From Planctomycetia bacterium (GTDB lineage Bacteria; Planctomycetota; Planctomycetia; Pirellulales; UBA1268), in the NCBI GenBank assembly GCA_009924545.1, contig RFRL01000008.1, forward strand, positions 1 to 38,966: DNA of 38,966 bases, given 5' to 3'. The notes beneath the pieces are model-generated. The model saw only the letters and a program-made list of their open reading frames with translations, did no database searches and was not told the DNA's origin. Shown here piece after piece: positions 30,115-36,378 of the stretch. Positions within the stretch are counted from its first letter, which is position 1. Each line of letters opens with the position of its first letter. The position numbers were made by a program, and so were the translations under genes.

Positions 30115-30258
30115 ATGATGGTGACGAATTCGGGAAACACCCATCGCCCTTCGGCCACCGACCTCGAGCGGGAGCGGCGGCGCCTCCGCCGGGAGCTGCT
30201 TCGGAGGATCCTCGACCGCGAGACGCGCCGGCGGCGGGTCCGCGGTGCCGTCAGGTGA
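30115..30258 (+). CDS. Possible small basic helical protein
   Basis: An ORF of about 47 codons (MMVTNSGNTHRPSATDLERE followed by an Arg/Leu-rich helix) has a GGAGG at 30109-30113, close to the start. It ends 25 bases before the protease start at 30284. Strongly basic and amphipathic, so it could be nucleic-acid binding, but the high GC can create such ORFs by chance. The rest of the 316-base gap after ilvA holds nothing recognisable. Confidence 0.3.
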   Translation: MMVTNSGNTHRPSATDLERERRRLRRELLRRILDRETRRRRVRGAVR

Positions 30259-30283
30259 ACCGGCCACGGCGCGGAGGCTTCCG

Positions 30284-31375
30284 GTGCCGATCCCTTTCCG
30301 GATCATCGTCGCCACCTGCATCGCGGTCTGGCTGGCTCTGGCGGCACTGACCGCCCAGGGACAGTGGTGGTGGCCCCAGCCGCGGTCGTCGGGAGGGGCG
30401 CCGTGGCAGCCGGAGTTGTTCTCCGACTACCTCGCGTCGGGTCAGCCACCCCACCCGTCCGTGCCCCGCATCGTGGCCGCCGAGCGGGATGGCGCGTCGC
30501 TGGGGTCGGGGGTTCTCGTCGATGTCAATGGCACCCAGGGGCTGGTGCTCACCAACTGGCATGTGGTGCGTGACACGCGATCGGCCGTCCTCGTACAGTT
30601 CCCCGACGGCTTCCAGTCGGCCGGCACGGTGATCCAGCAGGATGAAACCTGGGATCTGGCGGTGATCGTCGTCTGGCGGCCGCCAGCGCCGCCCGTGCCG
30701 CTCGCCGACGCCCCCCCGGCGATCGGCGAGCCCCTCACCATCGCCGGTTGGGGGCGCGGCACGTTCCGCGCCCAGACCGGCCCCTGCACGCAGTACCTGT
30801 CGCCCGGTTCCGGTCAGCCCCAGGAGCTGGTGGAACTGTGGGCCACCGCGCGGCAGGGGGATTCCGGAGGACCGATCCTCGACGCCCGCGGGCGGTTGTC
30901 TGGCGTGCTCTTCGGGCAAAACGAGGGTCGGACCATCGGCAGTTGCTGCACGCGGCTGCGCGCCATGCTCGCCCGGGTCGGATCGGTCGGCGTTCCGCTC
31001 GCGACCATGTCGGCGGCGCCGGTGATGCCCCAGGCGGTGCCGGCCCCCACCGGTCCATGGGGAACCACCAACGCCGCCGTTCCATCGGGCCTGGCGCCGC
31101 CGGGGGAGACGACCCCATCCGCCACACCGCTGACAAACCCGACAGACCCGTCGCGCGCCGAGTCCATCTCCGCCGCCGCCTCGCCCACGGCTGGTGCGGC
31201 CGTCGCCGGACGGCAGACGCGCGGCGCCGCGTCCGGCAGGACGATCGATCCGGGAACGTTGCTCGATCGGCTCCGAACTCCGGCGGGCAGGGAAACGGCA
31301 CTCCAGGTGGCCGGAGGATTGGCTCTGGCCGTCCTCGGCCTGCGGACGGTGTTCACGAGGCGCAGTCGCGGCTGA
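30284..31375 (+). CDS. Membrane-anchored trypsin-like serine protease
   Basis: Predicted 363 residues. An N-terminal hydrophobic segment (PFRIIVATCIAVWLALAALT) serves as signal anchor. The trypsin-fold catalytic triad is visible: His93 (LTNWHVV), Asp124 (ETWDLAVI) and Ser194 (ARQGDSGGPI), with SLGSGVLVDVNGTQGLVLTN before the histidine. After the catalytic domain (to about residue 240) comes a Ser/Thr/Pro/Ala-rich linker, then a second hydrophobic stretch near the C-terminus (ETALQVAGGLALAVLGLRTV) with positive residues behind it, so both ends may be in the membrane. GTG 30284 is preferred over GTG 30245 because GGAGG sits at 30273-30277. There is no PDZ domain, so it is not a standard DegP/HtrA. 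It is followed by the kinase gene after 132 bases. Confidence 0.8.
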   Translation: MPIPFRIIVATCIAVWLALAALTAQGQWWWPQPRSSGGAPWQPELFSDYLASGQPPHPSVPRIVAAERDGASLGSGVLVDVNGTQGLVLTNWHVVRDTRSAVLVQFPDGFQSAGTVIQQDETWDLAVIVVWRPPAPPVPLADAPPAIGEPLTIAGWGRGTFRAQTGPCTQYLSPGSGQPQELVELWATARQGDSGGPILDARGRLSGVLFGQNEGRTIGSCCTRLRAMLARVGSVGVPLATMSAAPVMPQAVPAPTGPWGTTNAAVPSGLAPPGETTPSATPLTNPTDPSRAESISAAASPTAGAAVAGRQTRGAASGRTIDPGTLLDRLRTPAGRETALQVAGGLALAVLGLRTVFTRRSRG

Positions 31376-31507
31376 TGGCAAGGAGGCCACGGCGGTGACG
31401 TGCCCCCCGGGGCCGGGCCACCGCTCCCTTCCGGCACGGCCTCGGGGGCCGCCACGTTGCCCGGGAGCACCGGCGGGTCGATACTGGTTCTTTTCCCAGG
31501 CGCCGGC

Positions 31508-32683
31508 ATGGAATTGCGATCTCCCCTCAATCCCGCCCCCGACGATCTCTCCGGCCGGAGGTTGGGGGGATACCGCCTCCTGCGCCTCCTCGGCCGGGGG
31601 GCGATGGCCGACGTCTATCTCGCCGAGCAGCAATCCCTCGATCGCCGCGTGGCGGTCAAGGTGCTGCGGAGCCGCACGGTTTCCCAGCCTGCGGCGGTGC
31701 AGCGGTTCACGCAGGAAGCCCGGGCGGCCGCCGCCCTCGTCCACGGCAACATCGTGCAAATCCACGAGGTGGCCTGCATCGACGGCATCCACCTCCTCGC
31801 CGAGGAATACGTCGCCGGCCCGACGCTGCGCGCCTGGCTCGACCGGCGTGGCCCGCTCGATGCCCGCCAGGCCCTCTCTGTCCTCGGGCAGGTGGGCTCG
31901 GCCCTGGAGCGGGCGGCCTCGCAGGGCGTGGTCCACCGCGACATCAAGCCGGAGAATCTCCTCGTCGCCCCCACGGGCGAGGTGAAGGTGGCCGATTTCG
32001 GCCTCGCCCGCGTCCTCACCGACGGCGTCGGCACCGACCTCACGCAGGATGGCACCACGCTCGGCACCCCCCTCTACATGAGCCCGGAGCAGGCGGAGGG
32101 GAAACCGGTTGACACTCGTAGCGACCTGTACTCGCTCGGGGCCACGCTCTACCACCTCCTCGCCGGTCGGCCCCCGTTCTCCGGACCGACACCGCTGGTG
32201 GTGGCGATGGCCCATGTCACCCAGCCCTGTCCGCCGCTGGAGCAACACCGTCCCGACCTCCCCTCCGATCTGACGGCGGTGGTGACGCGGCTCCTGGAAA
32301 AGGCTCCCGAGCACCGCTTCGCCGGTCCGGGCGACATGCTCCGTGCCGTGGAGGCGGCTGAACAGGCGGTCGCCCCGTCGTCGCGCCGCCACGATCCCTC
32401 GCCGCTGGCCTGGTCGGTGGACGGCGCCCCGTGGGACGACAGCGCCGACGTGCCGCTGCAAGCTCCCGCGCCAGGGCGCAGTTGGCTGCAGACGCGGACG
32501 GTGGAGATGCGCGACGCCACCCAGCGGCTCCAGGATGCGATGGAGCGTGAGCAACTGCGGCGCGACAGCGAGCGCCGCTACTGGCTGGCGGTGGTGGCGG
32601 CGGGGTTGGCCCTTGCCGCCATCGGCTTCGCGGTGGGGCGCACCCGGCCGCGTACGAGCCGGCTCTTCCGTCAGCCGCGCTGA
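31508..32683 (+). CDS. Membrane Ser/Thr protein kinase (Hanks type)
   Basis: Predicted 391 residues. The N-terminus DLSGRRLGGYRLLRLLGRGA is characteristic of planctomycete kinases. Kinase motifs present: the glycine loop GRGAMADVYLAE, Lys51 (VAVKVL), HRDIKPENLL, DFGLARVL, GTPLYMSPEQAEG and the DVYSLG-like SDLYSLGATLYHLLAGR. The kinase domain ends near residue 285. A linker follows, then a single transmembrane helix (YWLAVVAAGLALAAIGFAVG, about 358-377) and a short basic tail, so the kinase faces the cytoplasm with almost nothing outside. ATG 31508 is chosen over a 36-codon low-complexity GTG extension. No PASTA or sensor domain is present. Target proteins are unknown; the trypsin-like protease upstream may be functionally linked. 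Confidence 0.9.
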   Translation: MELRSPLNPAPDDLSGRRLGGYRLLRLLGRGAMADVYLAEQQSLDRRVAVKVLRSRTVSQPAAVQRFTQEARAAAALVHGNIVQIHEVACIDGIHLLAEEYVAGPTLRAWLDRRGPLDARQALSVLGQVGSALERAASQGVVHRDIKPENLLVAPTGEVKVADFGLARVLTDGVGTDLTQDGTTLGTPLYMSPEQAEGKPVDTRSDLYSLGATLYHLLAGRPPFSGPTPLVVAMAHVTQPCPPLEQHRPDLPSDLTAVVTRLLEKAPEHRFAGPGDMLRAVEAAEQAVAPSSRRHDPSPLAWSVDGAPWDDSADVPLQAPAPGRSWLQTRTVEMRDATQRLQDAMEREQLRRDSERRYWLAVVAAGLALAAIGFAVGRTRPRTSRLFRQPR

Positions 32684-32986: not shown

Positions 32987-33059
32987 GCCCCCATCGTCTA
33001 GTGGCCCAGGACGTCGGGTTCTCAGTCCGAAAACCGGGGTTCGACTCCCCGTGGGGGTA
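32987..33059 (+). tRNA. tRNA-Glu (CTC anticodon)
   Basis: Folds as a full cloverleaf. The acceptor stem GCCCCCA pairs with TGGGGGT (first pair G-T), followed by discriminator A at 33059. The D arm GTCTAGTGGCCCAGGAC closely matches known tRNA-Glu. The anticodon stem TCGGG/TCCGA (last pair G-T) encloses loop TTCTCAG, giving anticodon CTC. The variable region is AAAC and the T arm is CGGGG TTCGACT CCCCG. The CCA end is not encoded in line after the discriminator. It is flanked by the promoter at 32950 and a terminator at 33068. The integrase remnant lies just downstream. Confidence 0.95.
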
Positions 33060-33067
33060 CTTCGACG

Positions 33068-33110
33068 GCCGTGTCTTCCGGAATCCCGGGAGATACGGCT
33101 GTTTCTTTTT
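33068..33110 (+). terminator. Rho-independent terminator of tRNA-Glu
   Basis: The stem GCCGTGTCTTCC (33068-33079) pairs with GGGAGATACGGC (33088-33099) over 12 positions (two G-T pairs) around an 8-base loop. It is followed by the T-rich tract TGTTTCTTTTT (33100-33110). It lies 8 bases after the tRNA. Reading its reverse complement gives the lysine/glutamate-rich end of an antisense ORF, which should not be mistaken for integrase sequence. Confidence 0.85.
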
Positions 33111-33124
33111 CCATCTGCCGCTGC

Positions 33125-33434
33125 TTGTGGACGGGGCGCGGCCAGGCCGGGAGCGAGGCATCCTCGAGAATGCGGAGCAACTGGGTGCGGAGGTTGGCGT
33201 TGGCCGACCGGTAGCGGGTGATCACGTGGACCGCGCCCTCCTCGGCCGCCTCGAAGGCCGCCTCCAGGTGCGGGCGGATCTCGTCGTACAGCGGAATGGT
33301 CTTGGGCTTGGTCTTGCCGCCCCGGGCCAAGATTCGGCCGCGGTCCCAGTCGATGTCCTGCCAGCGGAGTTCCACGGTCTCGGACGGGCAGCGCAGCCCC
33401 CCGAATCGAATCAGCGACAAGATCAGCGGGAAAG
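33125..33434 (-). pseudogene. Remnant of a tyrosine-recombinase/integrase gene
   Basis: About 103 codons on the minus strand read LSLIRFGGLRCPSETVELRW, QDIDWDRGRIL, IPLYDEIRPHLEAAFEAAEE, VITRYRSANANLRTQLLRIL and SLPAWPRP. This matches the start of the catalytic domain of planctomycete site-specific integrases, including the first catalytic arginine (FGGLR). The chain stops being integrase-like before the conserved HxxR and tyrosine: beyond 33125 the frame runs through the tRNA terminator and the tRNA itself. Upstream of 33434 the frame is not recognisable. It is a truncated, non-functional remnant beside a tRNA gene, a usual integration site. The rest of 33060-33637 shows nothing further. Confidence 0.7.
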
Positions 33435-33637
33435 AGAACGAACTGGCCGAGCCGGACGCAGGACAGGCCCTCTTGCTTCGTCCGCTCTCGAGCAGCCGGG
33501 CGCTGCTGCCTCGGGCGACGGTGGTGTCACGGAGCTGACGACGAGGGGGCGATCGCTTCCGGGAGCCAGCGGTTTGTGCCTGGCTTGCTCCGTGGTCAAA
33601 TGACGGTGTCCCGAACGACGAGCCGCGGGTCCCGGCC

Positions 33638-34423
33638 ATGCACGGATTGATCTTCTTCTATCTGCGGAAGTTCCTCGCGGTCGCCGCCCCCGGGACGGTG
33701 TTCGACGGCGCGGCGCCCTCCGAAGGGAGCTCGACGTCGGTCGTCGCGAGAACCTCGCGCTACCTGCCCACCGGCGTCTATCCCGACGCCGATGCCGTGG
33801 CGCAGCTCCAGGAGGCCAGCCAGGCCACGGGCGCCCCCCTCGACGACATCGTGGAACGGTTCGGCGAGTTCCTCGCCCCGCACCTCCTCAAGGTGGCCCG
33901 CGCGGAGATCGATCCCGCCTGGACGCTCCTCGATCTCGTCGAGCACACCGAGTCCATCATCCACGCCATGGTCCGGATCAAGAATCCCGGCGCCACGCCG
34001 CCGGTCCTCGAGACCCTGCGCGTCCACGATCGGGAAATGCAGCTCATCTACCGCTCGCCGCGGCGGCTATGCCGGCTCGCGGCCGGCCTGATCCGCGGGA
34101 TGGCGGGGGGGCTCGGCGAGACGGTCGAGATCGAGGAGACCTCCTGCCTCCACAACGGCGATCCGTTCTGCACGTTCGTGATCCGCGTCCCCATGGAGAA
34201 GACGCACCGCGACCGAGGCGACGGGGACACCGTGATGTGTTCGCCCGACGACATGGGCTCCGGTGACGCCGTCGACGTCATCGTCCGCGGCGACGCCACC
34301 GCTCCGCCGATGCCCCACTCGATCGGCGACCACCGCGTCGTCCGGCTCCTCGGCAGCGGCGGGATGGGACGGGTGTGGCTGCGCACGACGACCGCCTCGA
34401 CCGCGACGTGGCGATCAAGGTGA
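33638..34423 (+). CDS. Heme-NO-binding (H-NOX-like) N-terminal part of a sensor kinase, frame-broken
   Basis: Part of a predicted 500-residue protein spanning 33638-35139. Residues 1-185 resemble a heme-NO-binding domain: MHGLIFFYLRKFLAVAAPGT, YPDADAVAQLQEASQATGAP. The likely proximal histidine is His109 (ESIIHAMVRIKNPGATPP), Pro121 is conserved, and Tyr138-x-Ser140-x-Arg142 (LIYRSPRRL) is the signature propionate-binding motif. CLHNGDPFCTFVI follows. A linker leads to the kinase glycine loop GSGGMGRVW at about 34373-34378. Then the frame is wrong (LRTTTASTATW...), and AHDDRLDRDVAIKVM continues in the next frame from 34381, as if one base (for example G of CTGGCG) were missing at 34380/34381. 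It would be a soluble gas- or heme-sensing kinase. Confidence 0.75.
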   Translation: MHGLIFFYLRKFLAVAAPGTVFDGAAPSEGSSTSVVARTSRYLPTGVYPDADAVAQLQEASQATGAPLDDIVERFGEFLAPHLLKVARAEIDPAWTLLDLVEHTESIIHAMVRIKNPGATPPVLETLRVHDREMQLIYRSPRRLCRLAAGLIRGMAGGLGETVEIEETSCLHNGDPFCTFVIRVPMEKTHRDRGDGDTVMCSPDDMGSGDAVDVIVRGDATAPPMPHSIGDHRVVRLLGSGGMGRVWLRTTTASTATWRSR

Positions 34424-35139
34424 TGCTCCCCGAGACGGCCGCCAACGCGGCGAGCCGGGAGCGCTTCCTGCGCGAGAGCCGGGCGGTCGCCCAGATCGAC
34501 CATCCCCACGTCGTCCCGATCCATGACGTGGGGATCGACGGGGGCCTGCCGTACCTCGTCATGCCGTACCTCGACGGCGGGTCGCTCGCCGACCGGCTCT
34601 CCGCGGATGGCCGTCTGCCGTGCGACGAGGCCCTGCGCCTCGCCGGCGAGATCGCCGCCGGCCTCGGCGCCGCCCATGCCCGCGGACTCGTCCACCGCGA
34701 CGTCAAGCCGGACAACGTGTTCCTCGTCGGCCCGGGCCGGCACGCCCGACTCATCGACTTCGGGCTGGCGCGAGACACCCTCGAGTCCGGGTCGAACCTG
34801 ACCCTGGCCGGCTCGATCCTCGGAACGCCGGCGTACATGGCGCCGGAGTGGATCGTCGACGGGACCGTCGACCGCCGCTGCGACCTCTTCGGCCTCGGGG
34901 TCATGCTCTACAAGATGCTCTCCGGCCGCGTCCCCTTCGAGGGGCGCACGGTCGCGGCGGTGCTCACCGCAATCGCCAACGGCAATCCCGTGCCGCTCAC
35001 GGCGCTGGCGCCCGACGTGCCGGCGGAGGTGGCGGCGTTCGTGATGCGCCTCATCGCCCACGCTCCGGACGACCGACCGGCCGACGCCGACACGGTGGTG
35101 CGCACGATCGCGTCGCTGCGGTCGGCGCTCGGACGCTGA
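34375..35139 (+). CDS. Ser/Thr kinase part of the heme-sensor kinase
   Basis: C-terminal kinase of the protein begun at 33638. True homology starts at 34381 (AHDDRLDRDVAIKVM, with the catalytic lysine), and the ATG at 34375 is not a convincing start because it removes the glycine loop. Motifs: VHRDVKPDNVFLVG, LIDFGLARDT, GTPAYMAPEWIVDGTV, DLFGLGVMLYKMLSGRVPF, DDRPADADTVVRTI. The C-terminus ends shortly after the kinase domain with no membrane segment, unlike the kinase at 31508. The stop codon is followed by a strong hairpin and then a convergent amidohydrolase gene. Confidence 0.85.
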   Translation: MAAHDDRLDRDVAIKVMLPETAANAASRERFLRESRAVAQIDHPHVVPIHDVGIDGGLPYLVMPYLDGGSLADRLSADGRLPCDEALRLAGEIAAGLGAAHARGLVHRDVKPDNVFLVGPGRHARLIDFGLARDTLESGSNLTLAGSILGTPAYMAPEWIVDGTVDRRCDLFGLGVMLYKMLSGRVPFEGRTVAAVLTAIANGNPVPLTALAPDVPAEVAAFVMRLIAHAPDDRPADADTVVRTIASLRSALGR

Positions 35140-35149
35140 AAACGGCTCC

Positions 35150-35173
35150 CGGCACCTCATCCATGAGGTGCCG
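35150..35173. terminator. Stem-loop between convergent genes
   Basis: Perfect 10-bp stem CGGCACCTCA (35150-35159) / TGAGGTGCCG (35164-35173) with a four-base loop TCCA. It sits in the 56-base gap between the convergent heme-kinase and amidohydrolase genes. Its symmetry and location fit a bidirectional terminator, although the flanking T-runs are short. Confidence 0.65.
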
Positions 35174-35195
35174 CAGGCTGTTTGTCCACGGCCTG

Positions 35196-36378
35196 CTACA
35201 CCACTCCGCCCGGCGCCGCCGGCCAAGCCCCCGACCGCGCGAGCCTCCCAGCCTTGACGGCTCCGCCCTGCATCACGGCGATGAACCTGCGGCGGTCCTG
35301 GAGGAGGGCGATGTCGGTGAGCGGGTCGCCATCGACGACGAGGATATCGGCGAGTTTGCCGGGCTCGATCGTCCCCAGGTCATCGCCGCGGCCCATGATC
35401 CCGGCCCCGGTCTTCGTGGCGCACACGAGGACCTCCTCGGGGGTCAGGCCGACATCCTTCACGAAAAACTCGAGCTCCCGGGCGTAGTCGCCGTGGGGAT
35501 TCCAGGCAAATCCGTAGTCGCCCCCCATCCCCAGCCGGCCGCCGGCACGGAGGATTCGGCGGGCGCTCTCGGCGCCACCCTCGAGCGTCTCCTGATGGCC
35601 GTCGATGACGCGCTGCGTGAGGCCGAACTCCTTGCCCCGCTCGACGCTCACCTTCTCGAAGTAGAGCGCCGGCACGCAAGGAACGTCGCGGGCGAGAAGG
35701 AGCTCCAGCCCCTCGTCGTCGATGAACGTGCCGTGCTCGATGCAGTCGTAGCCCGCCTTCAGGGCGTTGGTGATCCCGGCGGTGGCACGGCAGTGACCGG
35801 TGACCTTGAGACCGTGGTTGTGAGCGGTGGCGACCACGGCGCGCATCTCGTCGAAGGTCATGCACAGGGTGTGGTGGTCGTTGACGTCCGGGGCGGCGGC
35901 GTCGCCGGTGGGGTAGGTCTTCACCCACTCGACGCCGTCCTTGACCAGCTTCCGCACGGCGGCCCGGGCCTCATCGGGGCCGTTGACGAGGAGGACGAGC
36001 CCCTCCATCCCGATCCGGCGGAAGTCGGGATTCCAGTCCATCAATCCGCCGACGCCGCAGATCTCCCGTCCGCTGGCGGAGAGGCGCGGGCCCGTGGCCA
36101 CCCCGCTCTCGATCGCCTTCTTGAGCCAGACGTCGATGTTGAACAGGCTCCCGCCGCTCCGCGCGGCGGTGTAGCCGCACTCGAGCGCGAGCCTGGCGTT
36201 GGCTGCCGCGAGGAGCGTGACGTACTCCACCGGATACTTGATGTCGAGGTCCTCGAGCGCTGCGACGTCGAAGTAGGTGGGGTGGAAGTGGGCCTCCACG
36301 AGCCCCGGCAGGATCGTCCCGCCGCCGGCGTCGACGCGCCGCACGTCCGACGCCTGTGGCGGGAGGTCGCGCGCCGCC
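35196..36378 (-). CDS. Amidohydrolase, main catalytic part
   Basis: Main part of a predicted 431-residue metal-dependent amidohydrolase (spanning 35196-36490). Residues as read begin VDAGGGTILPGLVEAHFHPT, where HFH is the HxH metal motif after a PG(L/F)-type strand. Then ALECGYTAARSGGSLFNIDV, AHNHGLKVTGHCRATAGITN (metal histidines), GYDCIEHGTFIDDEGLELLL, AGGRLGMGGDYGFAWNPHGD with the active-site aspartate region, and the closing strand LGTIEPGKLADILVVDGDPL. The family includes imidazolonepropionase-, prolidase- and organophosphate-hydrolase-like enzymes; substrate unknown. The N-terminal part is in another frame (36041..36490). Confidence 0.85.

Follow-up and report, generated by a model that had tools for sequence, protein, structure and literature searches.

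The known outputs of bacterial H-NOX domains are histidine kinases, c-di-GMP enzymes and chemotaxis receptors. The H-NOX proteins of Shewanella oneidensis (SO2144), Vibrio cholerae and Caulobacter (2KII, 4U99) are standalone and act on a separate histidine kinase. In soluble guanylate cyclase beta and the H-NOX-MCP of T. tengcongensis, the H-NOX domain lies in cis with its output, which is a cyclase or a chemotaxis domain; to our knowledge, both lack the three-cysteine site found in the standalone proteins. In S. oneidensis this site binds zinc through Cys139, Cys164 and Cys172, with His161 as the fourth ligand; the fourth ligand in the described H-NOX groups is His or Gln (PMC7108781). The corresponding cysteines bind zinc in V. 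cholerae and Caulobacter H-NOX, and in V. cholerae their oxidation activates the protein (PMC7108781). Caulobacter H-NOX is activated by cysteine oxidation instead of NO; only this oxidation switches its partner kinase, and the protein is inactive in its Fe(II)-NO form (PMC12329717).

The window analysed here is a stretch of 38,966 nucleotides from a Planctomycetia bacterium (contig RFRL01000008.1). Positions 33638-35139 encode an H-NOX (HNOB) domain and, after it, a PknB-like Ser/Thr kinase. Among solved proteins, the sensor is closest to S. oneidensis H-NOX by both sequence and structure, and it has the fold, proximal histidine, YxSxR motif and three cysteines in common with the Shewanella, Vibrio and Caulobacter proteins. 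It differs from them in carrying a Ser/Thr kinase in the same chain and in having Glu or Asp as the candidate fourth zinc ligand. Soluble guanylate cyclase beta and H-NOX-MCP also have their output in cis, but in the fusion this output is a Hanks kinase. The kinase has the full catalytic motif set of PknB/Stk1-type kinases; unlike these, the fusion has no transmembrane helix or PASTA domains, and its sensor, which should be cytosolic, lies at the N terminus. No H-NOX-Ser/Thr-kinase fusion is reported in the open literature searched. Both domains are known individually; as far as the open literature shows, it is their fusion that is new.

The window gene, its frame break and its history

A preliminary description of the window proposed an H-NOX domain running into a Hanks kinase, with a frame problem at 34380. 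Both points are borne out. The first open reading frame (33638-34423, forward strand) matches Pfam HNOB (E 5e-19; 69.2 bits, the cut-off being 25.5), and its C-terminal part also matches V4R (1.3e-08); the second (34375-35139, forward strand) matches Pkinase (E 8.4e-42). In relatives the two parts share a single frame. The nearest relative, L036, is 77-81% identical and has both domains in one frame; the window is one base shorter than L036 at ~34381, and after ~34380 the kinase domain is read in a different frame from the sensor. L037, aligned in the wrong orientation, was left out of this comparison. Features are listed in Table 1; residue numbers throughout are those of the window protein.

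Table 1. Positions of the fusion gene and adjoining features in the window
Feature	Position	Strand	Basis or remark
tRNA-Glu(CTC)	32987-33060		
Integrase fragment, truncated tyrosine recombinase	33025-33639	-	Pfam 8.1e-05, under curated cut-off
H-NOX (HNOB) sensor domain, residues 1-184	33638..34189	+	Pfam HNOB, nearest solved relative, model
H109 codon	33962-33964	+	Within H-NOX domain
Candidate zinc/redox-type site C145, E167, C170, C178	within 33638..34189	+	Alignment
Linker, length varies	34190..34330	+	Alignment; low pLDDT in L032 model
T198 codon in linker	34229-34231	+	Alignment
PknB-like Hanks Ser/Thr kinase domain	34331..35139	+	Pfam, conserved motifs, fold match for L032
One-base deletion site, GGCT-GCGCAC vs GGCTCGCCCAC in L036	34378..34388	+	Comparison with L036
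Palindromic dispersed repeat, ~54 bp, directly 3' of kinase stop	35145..35198	+	

The break is peculiar to this assembly; L036 and dozens of other relatives have one unbroken frame of ~500 aa. Between the window and L036, dN/dS is ~0.33 on the 5' side of the break and ~0.30 on the 3' side, while GC3 is 0.92 and 0.94, respectively; by these measures purifying selection is equal on both sides. Because codon constraint is the same across the break, it is either recent or an assembly error.

An alternative with close to an even chance is that the window copy yields no functional kinase, being a pseudogene within a decaying island gained by horizontal transfer, the family being functional elsewhere. 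This would fit the deletion itself, the missing ancestral neighbours (the upstream gene and hisS), and the adjoining tRNA-Glu and integrase fragment. However, dN/dS and codon bias are equal across the break, the gene has no other disabling change, and draft assemblies often contain single-base breaks; the fusion gene of the relative G408 (L060) is broken at another place. The initial view of one broken gene is accurate in that the break is real in the window, but this copy is an unusual member of a widespread intact family.

The window copy is nearest to that of G413, from another genus (81% identity in the sensor and 77% in the kinase), compared with 55% and 50% for the same-genus G404. From ~33.6 to 37.6 kb the window is collinear with G413, except that it lacks ~1.3 kb in which relatives have hisS sequence; from 1 to 33.1 kb it follows the order of genomes of its own genus. 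At the ancestral site, on another contig of the window's genome, the fusion gene is missing: the end of hisS comes immediately after a lipoprotein-like gene. The simplest reading is that the fusion gene was horizontally acquired at tRNA-Glu, and the tRNA-Glu/recombinase region (32987-33639) is likely to be the integration site at the edge of the segment resembling the other genus.

The likeness to G413 also raises contig contamination or a chimeric join. Horizontal transfer is preferred because the repeat adjoining the gene is native and the first 33.1 kb share their gene order with same-genus genomes; a misjoin at ~33.1-33.6 kb is possible. The repeat has more than 40 copies in the window's genome and dozens in G404. 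It folds into two stable hairpins and possibly doubles as a terminator.

In relatives, an orphan lipoprotein-like gene lies immediately upstream of the fusion gene and hisS lies downstream; a MoxR/DUF58/BatA block and DUF4159 and Zn peptidase genes are also conserved neighbours. These neighbours indicate no pathway and were rejected as a clue to function. The orphan gene (L095:9687-10859) is conserved, encodes 390 aa without a Pfam match and, in L095, overlaps the start of the fusion reading frame; it is absent beside the window copy. Upstream of the tRNA, the window contains a trypsin-like protease (30245-31372) and, after it, a second PknB-like kinase of 427 aa (31400-32683), whose C-terminal segment is hydrophobic.

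Heme motif and three-cysteine site of the sensor

Conservation was assessed in a first alignment set of 42 fusions and a wider set of 59 fusions from several families. H109, P117, P121, P122, Y138, S140 and R142 are invariant in the first set; in the wider set, H109, Y138, S140 and R142 are kept in 57 sequences and P122 in 53. The histidine and YxSxR residues lie where the preliminary description placed them, and their conservation among relatives, on which it had staked the assignment in advance, holds in both sets. It also cited Pro121; this residue is invariant among the 42 fusions, but the canonical second proline aligns with P122 instead.

By sequence, S. oneidensis H-NOX is the nearest relative of known structure (1e-13). 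H-NOX structures, with 2KII/4U9B among the first, are also the top Foldseek matches of the predicted sensor fold (E 1.4e-08, TM ~0.6); the model is of modest confidence (mean pLDDT 68), with residues 18-48 predicted at low confidence. By homology, the sensor domain would contain a His109-ligated heme. Leu is present in 41 of 42 fusions at the position which we take to match the distal Tyr of O2-binding H-NOX proteins, counting from the T. tengcongensis sequence; this favours NO or CO over O2 as the presumptive ligand.

C145, C170 and C178 are invariant in the first set, and in the wider set C145 and C178 are each kept in 57 of 59 sequences and C170 in 58. They align with Cys139, Cys164 and Cys172 of S. 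oneidensis, and so correspond to the zinc/redox site of the Shewanella/Vibrio/Caulobacter class. The fourth position differs from that of the described groups: residue 167 is Glu in 40 of the first 42 fusions and, in the wider set, Glu in 47, Asp in 5 and Gln in 2. Zinc binding by the fusion is uncertain because Glu or Asp (52/59) replaces the His or Gln ligand, and occupancy of the cysteine site by zinc is presumptive. Since the three conserved cysteines lie at a zinc/redox site, NO is not necessarily the signal; the sensor may read NO, thiol oxidation or both. The gas- or redox-sensor reading first put forward thus agrees with the conserved heme motif, but had overlooked the cysteines.

Two homologues, L079 (G107) and L113 (G556), have lost the histidine, YxSxR and the three-cysteine site and have retained the kinase. 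This joint loss suggests a single sensory function shared by the heme and cysteine sites. At its C terminus, L079 also carries repeats resembling TPR.

It is rather unlikely that the fusion is mainly a thiol/zinc redox-sensing kinase in which heme is structural or not an activating input. Such a role would be consistent with cysteines as strongly conserved as the heme histidine, and has a precedent in Caulobacter H-NOX with its inactive Fe(II)-NO form (PMC12329717). However, H109 and YxSxR are conserved to the same degree, so that selection apparently acts on heme binding too, and the Glu at the fourth position is no more than a putative ligand.

Kinase domain and distribution of the fusion

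The Hanks kinase motif set is complete (G-loop, K262, HRD, N361, DFG and GTxxYxAPE) and invariant in all 42 fusions of the first set. In the wider set, K262 is kept in 59/59 sequences and D356 in all 57 rows that cover that position; D356, N361 and D375 are found in every covering row except for one X. In a full-length model of the relative L032, the kinase fold matches M. tuberculosis PknB; the model is of modest confidence (mean pLDDT 65) and does not predict the interdomain arrangement. The linker has a pLDDT of 21-41 in this model. It contains a conserved threonine, T198, present in 42/42 and 52/59 sequences of the two sets.

No transmembrane anchor is evident in the sequences examined (19-residue windows, Kyte-Doolittle >1.6); a stretch above this value occurs in just one of them, within the kinase. 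The fusion protein is therefore expected to be cytosolic, which supports the likely solubility of the sensor, as originally suggested.

A survey of genomes for the same fusion, proposed in the preliminary description, found a homologue in 46 of the 72 genomes of the same family, in most cases with an open frame of ~500 aa. L032 (499 aa) and L033 (508 aa) encode both parts without interruption; the L034 homologue is broken by a masked stretch. Full-length members were found in 2 further families at the order level, and class and phylum searches added 17 sequences matching both parts. In total, the fusion is present in at least five planctomycete families beyond the window's own, and the fused protein is conserved in many planctomycetes. 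A plasmid search gave distant matches; among those listed none exceeds 36% identity, and most are annotated as heme NO-binding proteins. The H-NOX domain tree places every kinase-fused domain in one group (support 100/100) with a single standalone protein, which is compatible with one origin of the fusion.

A standalone H-NOX gene beside a separate kinase gene, as the differing frames of the window alone might suggest, is highly improbable: the H-NOX frame passes the linker and enters the kinase glycine loop (GSGGMGRVW) upstream of the shift, and dozens of relatives from several families, each with one continuous frame, reject it for the family.

Proposed mechanism

The fusion is probably a soluble one-component sensor kinase in which the state of the heme and/or the cysteine-zinc site gates the kinase. 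In intact members, NO would bind the His109-ligated heme and break the Fe-His bond, and/or the Cys145/Cys170/Cys178 zinc site would be oxidised. The change at the heme or cysteine-zinc site would shift the C-terminal subdomain of H-NOX; the flexible linker would couple this subdomain to the kinase N-lobe, changing the activity of the tethered kinase. Autophosphorylation of T198 in the linker is a possible output. The comparisons above establish the fusion, its fold, the constraint on it and the conservation of its heme, cysteine and catalytic residues; from these we infer the heme and zinc occupancy, the ligand, the sign of control and the substrates.

A broader proposal, possible but decidedly tentative, is that widespread planctomycete H-NOX-Ser/Thr kinases integrate NO (through heme) and oxidant (through a Cys3-Glu zinc site) into Ser/Thr phosphorylation, which would be a new H-NOX output. 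Because sensor and kinase share one chain, both heme-to-kinase coupling and the question of NO versus thiol can be addressed directly in one purified protein. Through this fusion, planctomycetes probably turn an NO or oxidation signal directly into protein phosphorylation; the covalent Ser/Thr kinase output, if true, would show NO/oxidant sensing feeding eukaryotic-type phosphorylation in bacteria.
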